Source: a virus
DNA: 26,852 nt
Virus record (IMG/VR): IMGVR_UViG_3300037584_002685
Location: 1 to 26,852 of that record
Reading direction: 5' to 3' (one strand)
A program made the translations under genes and the position numbers. This document shows, piece by piece, positions 9,085-23,974 of this stretch (positions are counted from its first letter, which is position 1; each line of letters begins with the position of its first letter). The notes under the pieces are model-generated. The model made no database searches and had not been told where the DNA came from. It saw nothing but the letters and a program-made list of their open reading frames with translations.

Positions 9085-9792
9085 TTATATCCTTAGCTTT
9101 GTAGCTCGTTTTAATATGTTTGAGACACCTGCTGGTGTCCACGTATCCTTCCCTCTCCTAGTTTTAAGACCTCTTTGCATAAGTGCGTTTGCTATTTGCT
9201 GCAAAGTAGTTTGATCGTAAGACTGTATCTCCCTTATGGTCTTAATAATGTTTTTGGTATATTCATCTGCTAGTTCTTCCCTAGCCTTACTAGCATTAAT
9301 GGTAGCCCTATCCAACTGAGGATTGCCAGCCTTCCAGCCAGTAGCTTTTTTTCTTGCAATACCATCACGCTTATTTTGTGCGCTACGTTTTAATATATCT
9401 TCTGCTGTAGTTAGCATTGTTGAAATATACATTTGCCTAAATTCTGTTTTATGATTCCACCTACCCAATACCGCAATATAAGGTCTATTTTCTATCCGCA
9501 TAAATTCTGTTATTGCAGTTATATTACGTGATAGGTAATCAGGGAATGGTATTAATAAAAGCCTGTTTGCTTTTTGATTAGTTTTATCTACAGCCTTAAC
9601 CAGCTCAGGCTTAGAGTTTTTTCTTGAAGTTTCCTCAATGTATTCAGCTATAACCTTAGAATCCCTTAATGTTGTCATAGCTTCTTCAGCTAATGCCCTA
9701 GCCTTCTTAACATCCCTTTTATTCTTAATATACAGAACACAATGTTTGCCACTTGGTCTATATATATTGTGCATATTAAATTTGTCGTTCAT
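9085..9792 (-). CDS. Serine-recombinase-like protein with degenerate catalytic site
   Basis: A 235-aa protein starting at ATG 9792 behind GGAGAGAG. The C-terminal part matches the small serine resolvase layout: a long helix, GNP at 156-158, IIKTIREIQ, then an HTH-like LQQIANALMQRGLKTRRG and TWTPAGVSNILKRA. The N-terminal domain keeps the fold pattern (VLYIKNKRD for YxRVSTxxQ; LLLIPFPDYLSRN for LxxxxLDRLSRN). However, the catalytic serine position reads lysine (K25), the preceding arginine is lysine (K23) and the first arginine of the DRLxR motif is tyrosine (Y86); R89 remains. Strand cleavage is therefore unlikely, and a DNA-binding or regulatory role is more plausible. No attachment site was seen. 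Confidence 0.7.
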   Translation of the reverse strand: MNDKFNMHNIYRPSGKHCVLYIKNKRDVKKARALAEEAMTTLRDSKVIAEYIEETSRKNSKPELVKAVDKTNQKANRLLLIPFPDYLSRNITAITEFMRIENRPYIAVLGRWNHKTEFRQMYISTMLTTAEDILKRSAQNKRDGIARKKATGWKAGNPQLDRATINASKAREELADEYTKNIIKTIREIQSYDQTTLQQIANALMQRGLKTRRGKDTWTPAGVSNILKRATKLRI

Positions 9793-9960
9793 ACTCTCTC
9801 CTATAAATATCAATCTCTTATATTATATAAAAATATAAATTAATACAAATTACAAATATATAAAGACCGATATTTATATTACTTCGTTACCTTTATTAAC
9901 ATACATACAAGTATATATATTTATATATAAATAGCAAATATAAGTTTGAAGTTTGTATAA

Positions 9961-12187: not shown

Positions 12188-15100
12188 TTATTCTCCTTTA
12201 AGTTCGTCTATTTCTGCTTTTAATTCTTCTATTTGTGTTTGTTGTTCTTGTATAGCCTTAACTAATGTAGGAATCATATCACCCATTTTTACAGACTTAG
12301 CATCATCTAAATCATCATGCTTAAAATCTCCTATTAAATTAGGTAAAACTGTTTCTACTTCTTGTGCTATAAAACCAGTAACATTTTTTTCATTACTACC
12401 TTCGCCTTCTTTCCAATCAAAATTTCTAGGTTTAAGAGCTATTATTTCAGACAAACCAGTATCTATATCTTTAATATTTTCCTTTAATCTTTCATCTGAT
12501 AACGAGGATATTGATGTAGTTACAGCATTAACTGTACCAGCACCAGATACATAAAAAGTATAAGAACTGCTGTTTGTACTTCTTACAAGATATGTATTAC
12601 CTGCATCTGCAATAGTCATAATAGCTTCACCACCATCTATGTAACCACCAGCAACATTAACACTTGTAGATGTTTTCTTTAGCAACAACACGCCTGAAGA
12701 ATCGATACGCATCCTCTCAGAACCTGCGTTAGTATGAAACATAAGATTTCTTGAACCATCGTATGACATACCGCCATCGTAGGCATCAGTGTTATTTGCG
12801 TTATCTCTTGAAAAAGCGTACCAACCTAATCCAGTTCCTACATAGTTAGCTATACCGCCAGCACTACCATTACCAACCACTAAATTATTAGCGTTAGCGT
12901 GGTTATTTGATGGTGTTGTATTTGCAATTCCGACCTTGCCTGAAGAATCAATACGCATTCTTTCTGTTCCACCAGTAATCAACTGTATTCTATCTGATTC
13001 AGGTAAATTTATTCCTGTATTAATATCGCCTTCACAATTAAATGTAGGTTGTCCTGTAGAACCTGCACCTGCTGATATTCTTCCATCTGTTTCTATTTTG
13101 TTACCACTTGTTCCTGATGTTTTTCCAACTAATACATGTCCTGAAGAATCTATACGGAGTCTTTCTGATCCACCTGTAACAAATTGCAAAGTATCACCAG
13201 TTGGTCTTGTCATACCCGTGTTTGAATCATTTGAAAAGGCGTAAGTAGGAGTAGATACACCAAGAGGTGATGCTTTAAGTTGTCCACCTGCTGACATATC
13301 AAGGGTAAGAGCAGTTACTTCTGAACCACCATCGTTACCTTTGAATATCAAATCTTTATCAGAAAATTCAGATTTTATTACTACATCACTTGAACTAAAT
13401 CCACCTATCGTTCCAATAAGAGTTCCATTATCTTTTAATAGTATATCTCCACCATCTGCATCAAGAGTGATGTCTCCTTCTACATCTAGTGTTAAATCTC
13501 CACTACTCGTAATAGCCCCTGAGTTAATAGTTCCTGCAAGGTGAAGGTCTTTGAATCTTGCTCCTGAAGAACCTAAATCTATAGCATTATCATTATTAGT
13601 TCCATTTCCATTAGCAGGAGTTATTGTATCTGTAGCGTTTGCAAACTTTAAAAAAACATTACCTTGTCCAACTTGTATTGCACTGCTATAAGCACTAATA
13701 CTTCCAACAACTGTGTCATCTTTTGCGAAATGAACAATTTCTCCATCAGATGTGTTTCTATTAAAATGTCCAGAATAATTACCATCAGCACAAAAGAAAT
13801 TTCTACCATCAGCGCGTAGACTTGCGCCTACAGTTCCACTGCTTGCAACTGTTTGCCCCACTAACACATTGCCTGAACCATCTATACGCATGGCTTCTCC
13901 ACCAGATGTATCAAAACTTAGTACATCTGTTGAAGTAATAAGTGAAGCACTACCTGAAGTTGCAAATAATGAAGCTCTTAATGTGTTTGAGCTTTCAATA
14001 TCAAGCCTACCATAGGTTGCGCCATTAATAGTAAGAGTGGTTTGATTAGAATAAGCGTTTGGATTATCAGTTCCAATTCCAACATTACCATCAGCTTTAA
14101 TACGCATTCTTTCTGTATTATTAGTAAAGAAAACAGCAGAACCATTACTTCTATTTAAGAAAAAAGAATCATTAGAATAATGTAAAAGTTCTAATCCTTT
14201 AGTTGTAGCAGTTCCATCATTAGCATCTGTTAATCTTACGCTAGAACCACTAGCAGTACCATGAACATGCAGAACTGTACTGTACGCACTATTTTTAACT
14301 GGACTCGTACTAATACCAACATCTCCTGAAGAATCTATATATACCCTTGATGCCCCACCTGAAATCAATGAAAGCAAATCTGTTGAATGGGTATAAGCTA
14401 TACCACCTTTATACTGTTCACTTCCTGAAGTGCCATCAGCGAAATATAAAGCACCTGTAGTATTATTTGCTGTCACTACGCTTATTCCTGCTTCTCCACT
14501 TGCTTGTGATACAACTAAGTTATCTGCTCCTGAATAATAAGAAGTAGGACTAGCAGTCCCCAAGCCAAGATTGCCTGAAGAATCAATACGCATTCTTTCA
14601 GACCAAGAAATAGTCGCATCTGCTGTTCCTGAAGCTGCTGTGTACCAAGTGTGAATTCCAGTATTTTGTTGTAAATATAATGAAGCTGGTGCTGAAGCTA
14701 TATATTTATTGCCATTAGTAAAAGTATTGCCAGTTACTCTTTGATTAGTTGATATAGCAGTTCCAAAAGTTGTACCACTTGCATACGCAGCAAAAGCACT
14801 TCCTGTATTTAATTGTAAGGCTTTATAATTTGAGTGCCAGTCTGTTTCAGGAGTAACTCCAATACCTACATTGCCTGAAGCGTCTATACGCATTCTTTCT
14901 GTAGAATTGGTTTTAAATAATTGTATGCCACTTACATCGTAAGTAAAATTACCAGTTCTCGTCATGCTACCAGTAGAAAATGATAAAAACTCAGTACCAT
15001 TATCTTTAAATCTAACTTCTCCACCATCTGCATCTAATATGATGTCTCCTACAACGTCTAGTGTTAAATCACCTGAAGTGTTAGATATGTTTCCTGTAAC

Positions 15101-16936
15101 AGCTATGCCTGCATTAGATACTGAAAATTTTTCAGCAGCAGAACCATTAAATACAATTAAACTTTTAGTAGAATCTGCTCCTAAATAACCTCTTATTGTA
15201 CTTGCTTGTTTTAGCTCTATAAGAGCAGTAGCACCGCCTGTTCTATCAACACTTAAAGTTGTTCCGCTATGACTTAAAGTTGTAGCACCAGCAACTGTTA
15301 AGCCTGTAAGAGTTCCAACACTCGTAATAGCTGTTTGTGCTGCACCTGTTACTGTAGCGGCTGTTCCTGAAACATTACCTGTAACATCTCCTGTTACATT
15401 TCCCTCAAGATTAGCTACTAAAGTTCCAAGTGAAGCTAAAGTTATATTGCCTGTAGAAGTACCATCTGCTGTTGTAAGTCCCATTGTGAACTTATCAGCA
15501 GATTCATCCCACATAAATACGCCATTGTTTTGATTGCCACGATTAATAAGCATACCGCTATCATTAACTGGCGATCCTGTTAAATTAGCATTAAGTTCAA
15601 ATAGGTTATCTTCTATTTTTAAATTAGTAGTATCTAGGTAAGTTAAATCACCATTAACAGTAAGATTTCCTGCTACTGTTAGGCTATCTGCTATTTGTAC
15701 ATCATCTGGTAATGACAATGTTACGCCTGCTGTTTCGCTTCCTGATCCTGATACAGAAACCTTATTTGCTGTACCAGTTATTGTTGCTACATAATCACCA
15801 GTAGTATCAGTTCCTAAAGCTACTGAGTTAGCTTGTATTGTACTTGATATGGTTACATCTGAAGTTCCATCAAATGAAACTGAGCCTGCCACATCGCCAC
15901 TTAAAGCTATAGTTCTAGCTGTTGCTAAAGCTGTTGCAGTATCAGCTACAACGCCACTTAAATTGTTAATAAAGGTATTAGTAACTCTAGCATCAATAGC
16001 TGAATTTGCCCTTGCATCTGTATAGTAAAGATTGCTTGATCCTTCGCTTACTGTATCTGTATCACCTTGAGTATAAGTTAAAACACCTGTTCCTGAGTTA
16101 TAAGATAATTGTGCTGAGTTTTCGCTAATTGAAGCCCTTGCCCTTGCATCTGTATAGTAAAGATTAGAGCCTTCAGTTAAATTTGATGTGGTTTTAGATG
16201 CAAGCCTTGTATCAAACCTAGCATCTGTATAGTAAAGATTACTAGAACCTTCTCCAATATCATCTGTATCTAAAGTAATATTTGCTGAACCATCAAAACT
16301 AACACCTGATATAGTTCTTGCTGTTGCTAAAGTTGTTGCTGTACTAGCATTACCAACTAATGCACCTGTAACCTGATTAAATACTACATTGTCTGAAGTT
16401 CCTACTGATTGACCAATAGCAAAAGTTACACCATTGCCTGAAGCGGTACTTGTAATACCAGTTCCACCTAATAAAGATAAGGTTTCAGAATCAAGATCAA
16501 TAGCAATAGTAGAACTACCATCACTTATATCTAAATCTTGCGCTGTTACTTGGCTATCTACATAAGCCTTAATTGATTGTTGAGTTGCTAATGCTGTTGC
16601 AGAATCACTACTTAAATTATCTTCATCTAATATGGATGCTACTGTAACACCTGAACTAAAACTTAATGAGGTAATACCATTAACAGTACCAGCATTAATA
16701 TCAAAAGTATTAGATGCAGTAATGCTAACACCAGTAGTTAGCCATGCATTGTTAGCAGCGTTTCTTATCTTTAATACATTGCTTGACGTATCTACCCATA
16801 ATTGATGAGCATACATAGTAGTTGGTTCGCTAGAACCACTATTTAAACTAACAGATGCAGCTAGAATTTCATTTAATTCTGCTCTAAAGTCTGCGCCTGT
16901 TTGGTTTGCTAAATTGTAATCTGTTGCCTGTGCCAT
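12188..16936 (-). CDS. Tail fibre/tailspike with S74 intramolecular chaperone
   Basis: A 1582-aa repetitive fibre, probably a trimer that contacts the host surface. After a short N-terminal part (ATDYNLANQTGADFRAELNE) come three NLYYTDAR repeats (about residues 230-320), a beta-rich middle, and eight units of the type ERMRIDSSGNVGIG spaced irregularly through residues 690-1450. The C-terminal 103 residues are a Peptidase_S74 chaperone (SDERLKENI, LKPRNFDWK, GFIAQEVE) with a closing coiled coil; this family cleaves itself off in front of the serine, here S1480. ATG 16936 has AGAGGAA upstream. An 80-bp promoter region with the 21-bp element and TATAAT precedes it, so the fibre can be transcribed separately from the tail block. 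Confidence 0.9.
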   Translation of the reverse strand: MAQATDYNLANQTGADFRAELNEILAASVSLNSGSSEPTTMYAHQLWVDTSSNVLKIRNAANNAWLTTGVSITASNTFDINAGTVNGITSLSFSSGVTVASILDEDNLSSDSATALATQQSIKAYVDSQVTAQDLDISDGSSTIAIDLDSETLSLLGGTGITSTASGNGVTFAIGQSVGTSDNVVFNQVTGALVGNASTATTLATARTISGVSFDGSANITLDTDDIGEGSSNLYYTDARFDTRLASKTTSNLTEGSNLYYTDARARASISENSAQLSYNSGTGVLTYTQGDTDTVSEGSSNLYYTDARANSAIDARVTNTFINNLSGVVADTATALATARTIALSGDVAGSVSFDGTSDVTISSTIQANSVALGTDTTGDYVATITGTANKVSVSGSGSETAGVTLSLPDDVQIADSLTVAGNLTVNGDLTYLDTTNLKIEDNLFELNANLTGSPVNDSGMLINRGNQNNGVFMWDESADKFTMGLTTADGTSTGNITLASLGTLVANLEGNVTGDVTGNVSGTAATVTGAAQTAITSVGTLTGLTVAGATTLSHSGTTLSVDRTGGATALIELKQASTIRGYLGADSTKSLIVFNGSAAEKFSVSNAGIAVTGNISNTSGDLTLDVVGDIILDADGGEVRFKDNGTEFLSFSTGSMTRTGNFTYDVSGIQLFKTNSTERMRIDASGNVGIGVTPETDWHSNYKALQLNTGSAFAAYASGTTFGTAISTNQRVTGNTFTNGNKYIASAPASLYLQQNTGIHTWYTAASGTADATISWSERMRIDSSGNLGLGTASPTSYYSGADNLVVSQASGEAGISVVTANNTTGALYFADGTSGSEQYKGGIAYTHSTDLLSLISGGASRVYIDSSGDVGISTSPVKNSAYSTVLHVHGTASGSSVRLTDANDGTATTKGLELLHYSNDSFFLNRSNGSAVFFTNNTERMRIKADGNVGIGTDNPNAYSNQTTLTINGATYGRLDIESSNTLRASLFATSGSASLITSTDVLSFDTSGGEAMRIDGSGNVLVGQTVASSGTVGASLRADGRNFFCADGNYSGHFNRNTSDGEIVHFAKDDTVVGSISAYSSAIQVGQGNVFLKFANATDTITPANGNGTNNDNAIDLGSSGARFKDLHLAGTINSGAITSSGDLTLDVEGDITLDADGGDILLKDNGTLIGTIGGFSSSDVVIKSEFSDKDLIFKGNDGGSEVTALTLDMSAGGQLKASPLGVSTPTYAFSNDSNTGMTRPTGDTLQFVTGGSERLRIDSSGHVLVGKTSGTSGNKIETDGRISAGAGSTGQPTFNCEGDINTGINLPESDRIQLITGGTERMRIDSSGKVGIANTTPSNNHANANNLVVGNGSAGGIANYVGTGLGWYAFSRDNANNTDAYDGGMSYDGSRNLMFHTNAGSERMRIDSSGVLLLKKTSTSVNVAGGYIDGGEAIMTIADAGNTYLVRSTNSSSYTFYVSGAGTVNAVTTSISSLSDERLKENIKDIDTGLSEIIALKPRNFDWKEGEGSNEKNVTGFIAQEVETVLPNLIGDFKHDDLDDAKSVKMGDMIPTLVKAIQEQQTQIEELKAEIDELKGE
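16013..16241 (-). repeat. Direct repeats encoding NLYYTDAR units
   Basis: A 20-bp block (GCATCTGTATAGTAAAGATT on the plus strand) occurs three times, near 16016, 16149 and 16222, inside the tail-fibre gene. Each encodes LYYTDA in the same frame. The conserved DNA suggests recent duplication or gene conversion between fibre units. Confidence 0.75.
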
Positions 16937-20560: not shown

Positions 20561-21159
20561 TAGACTACAACCTCGCGCACTTCAAATGAGATGCTGTAAA
20601 AGCCTGAAGCATCTGTTGAATAGCTAATTTCTCCTGTAGATAAGTAAACTGTAAATTGTGGCTTGTTTACTGTTATTGCTTCATTATCAGCAACAGCAGC
20701 TACCAATGGTGGAGATATAGTTATAGAAGCAGCTCCGCCACTTGCTGTAATATCATCTGTAACCATATAAACTTTAGAATGATTAGCAAATTTAATTAAA
20801 TCACCTGCTCTTAATGCATTATTGGTGTGAGAAAATCCATCTGAAGCTATATCAGCATCGCCAGCAGATTGTGCGCCATTCACTAAAATATCAGACTCAG
20901 AATGACTTACGCCCTTGTTATTTAATGGGTAACCAATTAAAAATGTCTCAAACATTCCTTTTTGTTTTTGTAAAAATGCAAATATGGCTTGAGCTTCTAA
21001 CTGCTGCATTGGCGGCATTGATACTGTAAAGGTAAAGTATTGACCCCCTATTTGCCTTACTTGTCTTTTACCTGATAAGGTCTGATTTATTAAAGTAGGT
21101 CTGTTGTCTTGAAAGCCTAATGCTCTAAAGTTTGGACTTGTTGGAAATGTACCACTCAT
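20560..21159 (-). CDS. Minor tail protein, distal-tail-like
   Basis: A 199-aa protein. The N-terminus (PTSPNFRALGFQDNRPTLINQTLSGKRQVRQIGGQYFTF) and MPPMQQLEAQAIFAFLQKQKGMFETFLIG form a beta sandwich with a helix, as in distal or minor tail proteins. A middle segment (DLIKFANHSKVYMVTDD) is a ligand- or ring-type insert, and the C-terminus returns to strands (FTVYLSTGEISYSTDASGFYSISFEV). It follows the tape measure directly (TAATG), the usual position of such proteins. The precise homologue is uncertain. Confidence 0.65.
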   Translation of the reverse strand: MSGTFPTSPNFRALGFQDNRPTLINQTLSGKRQVRQIGGQYFTFTVSMPPMQQLEAQAIFAFLQKQKGMFETFLIGYPLNNKGVSHSESDILVNGAQSAGDADIASDGFSHTNNALRAGDLIKFANHSKVYMVTDDITASGGAASITISPPLVAAVADNEAITVNKPQFTVYLSTGEISYSTDASGFYSISFEVREVVV

Positions 21160-23111
21160 TATGTAACTCCCATTCTTCCTCTATTATTCATTGCATTATT
21201 GATAATAGAAGTTATTAAACCTTTTCTTGATGCAAGCAATTCATCAAAGCCTGCTGCATCTACTGTTGATATATTGAAATTAACTGTAGATCCCATGCTT
21301 TGACCCTGAGCATGATCTATAACAGTTTCTTGGGGATGTAATATAGCTGGGAAACCGCCTTTACCATCTATCCCGCCTGCTCTAGCGCCATTACCTGTAT
21401 AACCACCGCCAGCAAAGCCTTGAATTAAACTATTAAAATTACCATTATCCATTGAAGCTACATCTCTTATTTGTGAAATTGTGCCACCCATAGATGTAAA
21501 CATTCTGTCAATAATTAATTTTTGTACTGCTATTCTAATTAACTCTCTTACAACACTAGTTGCAAAGTCTTTAAAACTAGCTTTACCATTTTCTAAGAAA
21601 TCCATAGTTAGATTGGTTAAACCATCATAAGATTTTTTAAATACACCCTGCATTTCTTCTTGCATTGTTTTTATGTTTGAGTGAAATTTTTTAAAACCAT
21701 CTTCTGCATCTTTTAAAAATTTTTCTAAAGCAGTTAGCGGGGTAAAACCAGTACCATCATCTGCATCAGGATCATTAGGATCGCGCCCTAAAAATATGTC
21801 TAAGATTGATCTTCTTTTTACTTTTTTAATAACTTTATTACTAAGTTCTTCTATTTTATTAGCTGTCTTATTTATTTTTTCGTTTAATTCACTATCTTCA
21901 GGCACAAGATTATCTAGTAATGTTATTTTGGGTAAGTTATCTATTCCCAGCCTGTCTTTTATTTTGTTTGGTAATTTATCTATAACCTTATTAACATTTT
22001 CTATAGCAGTATTAAATATTGTAAAAATAAAGTTGGCTGTACCTCTAAATGCATTTCTAATAGGAAGTATAAAACCATCATTTATTGATTTAAAAAGTTT
22101 TAGAAATCCTAACTTTATTTTTTTTGTAGCTATATTTGCTTCATGGAACATGATCTTAAACCCATGTATTATTTCATCTCTAAAAACATAAAAAGCTGTT
22201 AAAGCTGCAACTGCTCCAATAGCAAAAGCAGTAAATGGATTTGCAAGCGCAAATACACCCATAGCTATAGTTGCTTTGGCTATAGCTGCTGTTAGTAATA
22301 CAACTGCTGGTATTAAGATAAGATCAATACTCACAGCAAATTTGCCAACAATAGCACTTAGTGTTGAAAATCCTTCAGTTCCTTTTTGTATATCTCCAAT
22401 CATAAATTGGAAATTATTACGCAAAGCAACACCAGCTTGCCCTAGCGTCATAGGCATTTTTGATATTTGCTCGTTAGTTTCTTTTGTGCCTTGTATAAGA
22501 ATTGGCATTACAGTTTCGGCAGTAAGTTTACCTGCATGACCAAATTCTCTAAGCTCACCAATAGTCATGTTTAAACCATCGGCTAACATTTTTGTTAGGA
22601 TGGTATTGTTTTCCATAACTGAACGTAATTCATCACCTCTCAATGCACCAGAAGCTAAACCCTGGGCTAACTGTCTAGCTGAGTTATTTGCCTCTTGAGC
22701 ATGTGATCCAGCGATAATAAAGGTATTAGCAACTGTTTGTGTTGCATCAGCTACATCTCTTTGAGTTGCGCCTAAATGCTCTGTAGCTAAAGCTAATCTT
22801 GTATAAAGCATTGCTACAGCATCAAAATCAGACCTAGAATCACTAGCGATTCTACGCATGTTATCCATTGCAATACCAGTCTCAGTAGCGCTACCAGTTA
22901 AGGCGTTCATTCTGTTCTCAACGCCAATCATTACGTTGGCAGCTTCAATAATTTCTCTTGCACTAAAAGCAGCAAGAATAGTATTCCTTAATTGAGCTAC
23001 AACTTGATTTGCTCCGCCTACATTCTTTTTAAAACTATTAACAGCTTTAGCAGATTGGTCATTTCCACTTATGGTAAAGAGTAAATTATTTTTTGCTAAC
23101 CCTGAAAACAT
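21159..23111 (-). CDS. Tail tape-measure protein
   Basis: A 650-aa tape measure that sets tail length; at about 0.15 nm per residue it predicts roughly a 100-nm tail. Residues 60-240 are the TMP_3-type domain (VENRMNALTGSATETGIAMDN, ARQLAQGLASGALRGDELRSVMEN, MPMTLGQAGVALRNNFQFMIGDI). Hydrophobic helices follow at about 255-310 (LILIPAVVLLTAAIAKATI and ANPFTAFAIGAVAALTAF), probably for membrane insertion. The C-terminus has glycine-rich GGGYTGNGARAGGIDGKGGFPAILHPQE, a common tape-measure signature. Its ATG overlaps the stop of the chaperone frameshift product (TAATG), so its translation is coupled to that product. Confidence 0.9.
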   Translation of the reverse strand: MFSGLAKNNLLFTISGNDQSAKAVNSFKKNVGGANQVVAQLRNTILAAFSAREIIEAANVMIGVENRMNALTGSATETGIAMDNMRRIASDSRSDFDAVAMLYTRLALATEHLGATQRDVADATQTVANTFIIAGSHAQEANNSARQLAQGLASGALRGDELRSVMENNTILTKMLADGLNMTIGELREFGHAGKLTAETVMPILIQGTKETNEQISKMPMTLGQAGVALRNNFQFMIGDIQKGTEGFSTLSAIVGKFAVSIDLILIPAVVLLTAAIAKATIAMGVFALANPFTAFAIGAVAALTAFYVFRDEIIHGFKIMFHEANIATKKIKLGFLKLFKSINDGFILPIRNAFRGTANFIFTIFNTAIENVNKVIDKLPNKIKDRLGIDNLPKITLLDNLVPEDSELNEKINKTANKIEELSNKVIKKVKRRSILDIFLGRDPNDPDADDGTGFTPLTALEKFLKDAEDGFKKFHSNIKTMQEEMQGVFKKSYDGLTNLTMDFLENGKASFKDFATSVVRELIRIAVQKLIIDRMFTSMGGTISQIRDVASMDNGNFNSLIQGFAGGGYTGNGARAGGIDGKGGFPAILHPQETVIDHAQGQSMGSTVNFNISTVDAAGFDELLASRKGLITSIINNAMNNRGRMGVT

Positions 23112-23583
23112 TATTTTTCTTCCTTTATTTCAAGATAAGCCAACCAGCCTTGAAACTCCTCTACAGTTATACTTTCAATTTCTGCTAGAGTTTTACCTAG
23201 TTTTTCAGCTAATGCATATTTAATGTAAAGCTGCTTATCTTCTATTACTTTTTTTTAATATCATCCTGCGAAACATTATTCATCACTTCGCTTGATACTC
23301 TTATCAATACGTCTCTATCTACCCTCTCCAATAAGGTCTTCTTATCGGCAATCGTAAATAACTTTTCACCAGACTCGTCTAGTGCTTTATAAATAAGCAC
23401 ATATACAAGCAACTGGACATCATCATCTTTAGCTAGTTTCATAAACTTAGAAGTCTCTGCTAGGGTGATTGGTTTACAGTAAATCACCAATGGATTCTGT
23501 TCATCCTCACCCCACTCAGGGACTTCTATAGTTCTTGTCTCTAATGCATCAAAATGTTTCTTTGCGTTATCTATTGCTGACAT
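23111..23583 (-). CDS. Tail assembly chaperone GT, made by -1 frameshift
   Basis: A 157-aa product made when ribosomes slip by -1 near the end of the 112-aa G frame (23245-23583). The first 112 residues are those of G; after AAA AAG at 23248-23253 the new frame encodes 45 more, starting VIEDKQLYIKYALAEKLGKT and ending in an aromatic EEFQGWLAYLEIKEEK. This is the usual gpT-like tail that binds the tail-tube protein; G covers the tape measure during assembly. The extension has no start codon of its own, lies exactly between the G stop and the tape-measure ATG, and ends in a TAATG overlap. These observations strongly support a frameshift. Confidence 0.85.
23245..23583 (-). CDS. Tail assembly chaperone G
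   Basis: A 112-aa acidic protein beginning MSAIDNAKKHFDALETRTIEV, with an alpha-rich core (ETSKFMKLAKDDDVQLLVYVLIYKALDE and LLERVDRDVLIRVSSEVMNN) and ending in DDIKKK. The helical pattern, size and position between the tail tube and the tape measure fit G-type chaperones. The last codons (ATT AAA AAA AAG TAA) contain the frameshift site, so the unshifted product ends here. A spacing of four bases separates it from the tube gene. Confidence 0.85.
   Translation of the reverse strand: MSAIDNAKKHFDALETRTIEVPEWGEDEQNPLVIYCKPITLAETSKFMKLAKDDDVQLLVYVLIYKALDESGEKLFTIADKKTLLERVDRDVLIRVSSEVMNNVSQDDIKKK
23248..23254 (-). promoter_or_regulatory. Slippery heptamer A AAA AAG
   Basis: The mRNA reads AAA AAA AAG TAA in the zero frame, inside a run of eight A. 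The heptamer A AAA AAG is one of the most efficient bacterial -1 slippery sequences. A weak 5-bp stem (CAGCT/AGCTG) begins about 15 bases downstream; no strong stimulating structure is seen. Confidence 0.85.
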
Positions 23584-23587
23584 TGTT

Positions 23588-23974
23588 CTATGCTGTCGCT
23601 AATGTTAAAGCGCCTGTTCCTTGAACAGAAATACTAGCTTCAACCATTCCATCAAAAGATGCGCTTCTTGTAACACCAGTTACAATAGCTGTACCTGAAT
23701 AATACTTAGCTGTACTTGCAGTTCCTTCTGGATAGAACTTAATAGTTACACTTGTGCCAACAGTTAATGCTATTTGTGCTGTATCTGTTTCATCCCAAAA
23801 AACATCTAAACTTCCTGAGAAGGATGTTAATGATGCTAAATGAGTTCTAGCAGAATCACCCATAGATGTTGTTTCAACTGTATCAGAAGTTTCCTCAACA
23901 GAATAAGACTTAATTTCAGCTATAGCATCTGTTCCAACATGAACAGTACCTTCACTTCCTTTATGTATCGCCAT
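23588..23974 (-). CDS. Major tail-tube protein
   Basis: A 128-aa beta-rich protein starting MAIHKGSEGTVHVGTDAIAEIK. VETTSMGDSARTHLASLTSFSGSLDVFWDETD and GTSVTIKFYPEGTAS, then a GTAIVTGVTRSASFDGMVEASISVQGTG end, are typical of the phage tail-tube fold (phage_tail_2 type). The fold builds hexamer rings around the tape measure. It lies directly before the chaperone gene, as in lambda-like phages. Its start is inside the end of the 53-aa gene (overlap 14 bases). Confidence 0.85.
   Translation of the reverse strand: MAIHKGSEGTVHVGTDAIAEIKSYSVEETSDTVETTSMGDSARTHLASLTSFSGSLDVFWDETDTAQIALTVGTSVTIKFYPEGTASTAKYYSGTAIVTGVTRSASFDGMVEASISVQGTGALTLATA

Follow-up and report, generated by a model that had tools for sequence, protein, structure and literature searches.

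The window analysed here is the whole 26,852-nt stretch of the virus record IMGVR_UViG_3300037584_002685. Its tail genes are arranged in the order MTP-G-(T)-TMP on the minus strand, i.e., a major tail tube protein (MTP), a short gene G, an extension of G in the -1 frame and a tape measure protein (TMP), with the following features:

23588..23974, minus strand: major tail tube protein, the gene immediately before G
23583..23245, minus strand: G gene, the zero-frame product, an ORF of 112 aa plus TAA with its ATG at 23583
23264..23267, minus strand: AGGA, Shine-Dalgarno-like candidate upstream stimulator, ending 9 nt before the heptamer
23254..23248, minus strand: slippery heptamer A AAA AAG, in register and within a run of 8 A's
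23247..23245, minus strand: zero-frame stop TAA, adjoining the heptamer
23111..23248, minus strand: -1 extension (T-type tail), 45 codons plus TAA, without an ATG or GTG of its own
23206..23233, minus strand: weak hairpin, candidate downstream stimulator, with a CAGCT/AGCTG stem 14 nt after the heptamer
21159..23111, minus strand: tape measure protein, 650 aa, the ATG of which starts on the last base of the extension stop

Reading frames and protein identity

Direct reading of the sequence gives GAT ATT AAA AAA AAG TAA as the 3' end of G. The frames confirm the original prediction that G ends on a heptamer A AAA AAG, found at 23254..23248 in the register needed for tandem -1 slippage, and that a -1 shift opens a 45-codon extension to give a 157-aa fusion. 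The step back after AAG leads into GTA ATA GAA GAT AAG CAG and onwards to a TAA at 23113..23111, and the predicted TAATG overlap with the tape-measure ATG is present as well, one base (23111) being common to both. The gap from the G stop to the TMP ATG is, on the other hand, 133 nt and not 134 as had been stated. The extension was also said to have no start codon; this holds for ATG and GTG, but there is one late TTG (codon 37), useless as its start. The upstream limit of the -1 frame in the window is a TAA directly before the A run, and the shift is therefore possible in the window only on the run itself.

The assignment of G as a tail chaperone is upheld by sequence profiles and by predicted fold. 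G alone matches PHROG 344 (E 4e-8) and PHROG 16513 (E 1.5e-5), both tail assembly chaperones, and the extension alone matches PHROG 337 "tail protein" (E 4e-5). The search of the fusion against chaperone profiles, proposed with the prediction, gave a match to PHROG 16513 across the join (residues 4-152, E 8e-12) that is better than that of G alone. G falls outside the Pfam family PF16459 (Phage_TAC_13), where its score was sub-threshold (16.8-17.1 bits against a cut-off of 28.8); a PDB sequence search with the fusion profile returned a single hit, an unrelated helical protein matched by chance (E 0.03), and an NCBIfam search nothing relevant. Among solved structures, the AlphaFold2 model of G (pLDDT 88) is matched best by the HK97 tail assembly chaperone 2OB9 (Foldseek E 1.7e-3), to which VIA-align superimposes 100 of the 112 residues (Z 9.4, rmsd 3.8) at 14% sequence identity; YqbN (3KLU) is the next structural match, and the chaperone of phage RcRhea is a named match in a viral structure library. 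The neighbouring genes are those of a tail module: the upstream gene matches PHROG 1407 major tail protein (E 2e-19), and the TMP matches Pfam TMP_3 (E 2e-47), Tape_meas_lam_C and PHROG 339.

Conservation of the slip site and of the extension

Scanning IMG/VR with the 157-aa fusion gave 80 closest loci, corresponding to 52 distinct sequences and referred to here as the window clade. Nearly all of the 80 match the fusion over 3n-1 bases, and every one (80/80) has A8G followed at once by the stop, together with an unbroken -1 extension of 45-54 codons. Scans with cultured relatives contributed another two clades, each of 80 loci, as well as two rhizobial loci, the latter being the only relatives found in a scan of genome contigs. 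The IMG/VR clades, the rhizobial loci and 10 cultured phage loci make up the 252 sites that were tabulated, 172 of them forming the more distant set; a match in a Microcystis phage has a different zero-frame architecture and was therefore not counted. Each of the 252 sites has an in-register heptamer at the end of G. It is A AAA AAG in the window clade and in the clade of pelagiphage HTVC112P, A AAA AAC at the roseophage, rhizobial and HTVC026P/202P sites, and G GGA AAC in RcRhea. The zero-frame stop is the codon right after the heptamer in 249 sites and is found 3 nt later in the remaining three. The -1 extension is kept in all 252 loci wherever the contig is long enough, three contigs ending before the stop of the extension. 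Thus no relative that lacks the extension or has its frame broken, which would speak against the original prediction, was encountered among these loci. The slippery heptamer differs even among related pelagiphages, being A AAA AAG in L083 and L089 and A AAA AAC in L086 and L088; as all four infect Pelagibacter strains, the identity of its last base is not dictated by the host alone.

The extension is under purifying selection as a protein in the -1 frame only. In the three clades its dN/dS in that frame is 0.10, 0.15 and 0.10, similar to that of G (0.07-0.10), while its other two frames give values of about 0.8-6 and contain 148-341 stops. For the window clade this amounts to a dN/dS of about 1 or more and about 300 stops in the other frames, against zero stops in 52 sequences in the -1 frame.

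Within the window, 61 in-register X XXY YYZ heptamers were counted in the main genes, and only the one at the end of G adjoins the stop of its gene. A -1 frame of 45 codons without a stop occurs at 11 of 6246 in-gene positions (0.18%) and in 32 of 5000 shuffled versions of the gap (0.64%). The odds for the heptamer and for the open frame are modest when taken alone; it is the conservation in 252 loci that removes chance as a reading.

Probable ribosomal frameshifting and other explanations

The observation behind the original prediction is confirmed, and its interpretation as a G/GT pair is supported by sequence comparison and by the modelled fold. In our view the site is very probably one of programmed -1 ribosomal frameshifting, as in lambda G/GT. 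The majority of ribosomes would translate G as far as its TAA and release the 112-aa tail assembly chaperone. A minority would slip back one base while peptidyl-tRNA and aminoacyl-tRNA are both on A AAA AAG, bypass the stop that follows and continue for 45 residues, giving the 157-aa GT. If lambda is a guide, the G part would coat the TMP, and the small number of GT molecules would recruit tail tube subunits to it. That the slip occurs on the ribosome, how often it does so and what G and T bind are inferences.

There are three other ways to account for the arrangement. First, RNA polymerase could slip on the run of 8 A's and add one A, after which ordinary translation of the mRNA would yield the fusion. 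The protein would then be identical, A8 is invariant in the window clade, and a run of this length is at the lower limit of those linked to slippage in transcription (An, n > 7; cited in PMC3711429). However, homologous sites have only six or seven A's (GCA AAA AAC, GAA AAA AAG) or no run at all (G GGA AAC in RcRhea), and they are always in the X XXY YYZ register, which is needed for slippage of tRNAs and not of polymerase; the invariant final G of AAG also argues against an event in the polymerase. Relatives with short or absent A runs that nevertheless keep the tRNA register favour slippage on the ribosome, and we regard a transcriptional origin as improbable. Second, the extension could be an independent gene, T, that has a start of its own and is translated by reinitiation after the G stop, in line with the annotation of the corresponding region of phage phi3LM21 as an independent small protein. 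Such an arrangement is hard to reconcile with a frame that offers no ATG or GTG and a single late TTG, or with PHROG 16513, which models the fusion across the join. Furthermore, conservation in the -1 frame starts at the slip itself, GTA, the first codon after it, being invariant in the window clade; a separate T is accordingly very improbable. Third, long A runs are prone to sequencing and assembly errors, and G and T might truly be one continuous frame, but this is refuted by the relatives, as the frame relation is common to 52 distinct sequences from many metagenomes and to several cultured phage genomes, and is also found at sites without a long A run.

The ribosomal G/GT reading is known in kind, the mechanism of lambda being textbook knowledge, and what is new here is a well-conserved marine example. 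The lambda heptamer is G GGA AAG. Xu, Hendrix and Duda reportedly described, in 2004, a class of G/GT-type frameshifted tail assembly chaperones, in which G and a low level of GT are said to be made in infection and to be absent from virions, G reportedly binding the TMP and T the tail tube protein. At the present locus two overlapping frames lie between MTP and TMP, an in-register heptamer is found near the 3' end of G, the extension is conserved in the -1 frame, and the product matches tail assembly chaperones in sequence profile and in modelled fold. The likeness to lambda gpG/gpGT extends to the gene order, a short chaperone with a -1 extended form and a shift near the end of G (PMC5009743); here, in contrast, the stop abuts the heptamer and elements resembling stimulators seem to be present, and no sequence similarity to lambda is claimed. 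In lambda, G and GT are needed at about 30:1, and GT links the tape measure to tail tube subunits (PMC5009743).

A closer parallel is provided by the tail assembly chaperone of Rhodobacter phages RcRhea and RcCronus (GenBank KR935216); for the cultured relative RcRhea, the depositors annotated it as a join of two pieces at the corresponding position. There, too, a homologous G (28% identity in RcRhea) lies between the major tail protein and the tape measure, with a -1 shift, a stop adjoining the heptamer and an extension ending close to the TMP start, although the heptamer is G GGA AAC, the genome is GC-rich and there is no upstream AGGA. Homologous G and T are also present in roseophages CRP-811, -821, -822, -823, -831 and -406 and in pelagiphages HTVC026P, 111P, 112P and 202P, with A AAA AAC or A AAA AAG as the site of the -1 shift and a stop next to it. 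In the records of these CRP-822-type and HTVC phages, by contrast, only G is annotated, T being absent or overlain by questionable ORFs, and the paper describing CRP-822 names a tail assembly chaperone but never a frameshift (PMC12629253). HTVC112P gp41 (L083:1906-2052) and HTVC111P gp45 (L089:1906-2058), two reverse-strand hypothetical genes annotated over the conserved -1 extension, are almost certainly spurious; the phi3LM21 record presents the extension (L082:1896-2006) as a protein in its own right. The present analysis completes the tail-chaperone annotation for a marine phage group that is widespread and in whose deposited genomes only G is listed, the -1 domain being omitted or misannotated, and the deep set of relatives makes tuning of the G:GT ratio in AT-rich marine hosts testable.

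Candidate stimulators of the shift

The signal of E. coli dnaX consists of a Shine-Dalgarno (SD)-like element, A AAA AAG and a stem-loop (PMC3711429). The heptamer of the window is identical, and candidates for an SD-like element upstream and a stem-loop downstream can be named, but the motif is only 4 nt long and the hairpin is weak; moreover, the dnaX shift leads to a shorter product at about 50%, whereas here it would lead to a longer one. Synonymous conservation in the window clade is higher over codons -6 to +7, which surround the slip, than in any other 14-codon window of the gene (observed/expected 0.36; 18 of 20000 random column sets were as low). The same test gave a weaker result in the roseophage clade (71/20000) and was not significant in the HTVC112P clade (3523/20000).

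With respect to the upstream element, AGGA ends 9 nt before the heptamer in all 37 distinct contexts of the window clade, short as the motif is, and the CAG codon within it, one of the conserved codons -6 to +7, shows zero synonymous changes in 52 of 52 sequences. GAGG is found in 42 of 46 contexts of the roseophage clade and, ending 7 nt upstream of the heptamer, in 42 of 49 contexts of the HTVC112P clade. The energy of the duplex with the anti-SD in the window clade was -4.3, i.e., weaker than the -5.8 obtained for synonymous shuffles, which is probably an effect of Glu-rich codons, as these form strong SDs on shuffling. As this test went the wrong way, the proposed role of an SD relies on the conserved position of AGGA.

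The downstream hairpin has its left arm inside the conserved codons -6 to +7. Its arms (CAGCTA/TAGCTG) are paired in 99% of cells in 34 window-clade sequences and are nearly invariant, which explains why no covariation was detected among them. The downstream region across the window clade folds more stably than synonymous-codon shuffles, with a mean dG of -7.7 versus -4.6 kcal/mol, but the window's own hairpin is of ordinary stability relative to dinucleotide shuffles (z 0.08). The stem of the HTVC112P clade (GCGACC/GGTCGC), which lies about 6 nt after the heptamer and is 98.7% paired, is better placed than that of the window and is a stronger candidate stimulator. In the alignment of that clade (L173-L252; A3 columns 29-51) it appears as a near-perfect, almost invariant 7-bp stem 5-6 nt after the heptamer, with Ser encoded by AGC in one arm and by TCG in the other. 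For the roseophage (CRP) clade RNAalifold found no common structure, and a hand-named hairpin displayed modest covariation, with 26 double-changed cells versus 15 expected by shuffling.

These patterns are suggestive of stimulation of the shift by the upstream AGGA and the downstream hairpin, as at E. coli dnaX. It is tempting to speculate, although we hold it to be slightly less probable than the contrary, that in the marine family a dnaX-like three-part stimulated signal (an SD-like motif, A AAA AAG/C abutting the stop, and a hairpin), as opposed to a bare heptamer, sets the G:GT ratio, in phages whose public genomes omit the T domain.

The phage itself has a GC content of 34% in the window and probably belongs in or near the CRP-822-type marine group, as its major capsid protein is 65% identical to that of roseophage CRP-811. 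Three other genes on the minus strand of the window may be mentioned. A basic 221-aa protein (1100-1765), far from the head-tail module and near the contig end, had no Pfam match. Positions 12188-16936 encode a repetitive tail fibre of 1582 aa that carries a Peptidase_S74 intramolecular chaperone at its C-terminus. A serine-recombinase-like protein (9085-9813; Recombinase, weak Resolvase) hints, from its sequence, at a temperate past or at site-specific recombination in this marine phage.
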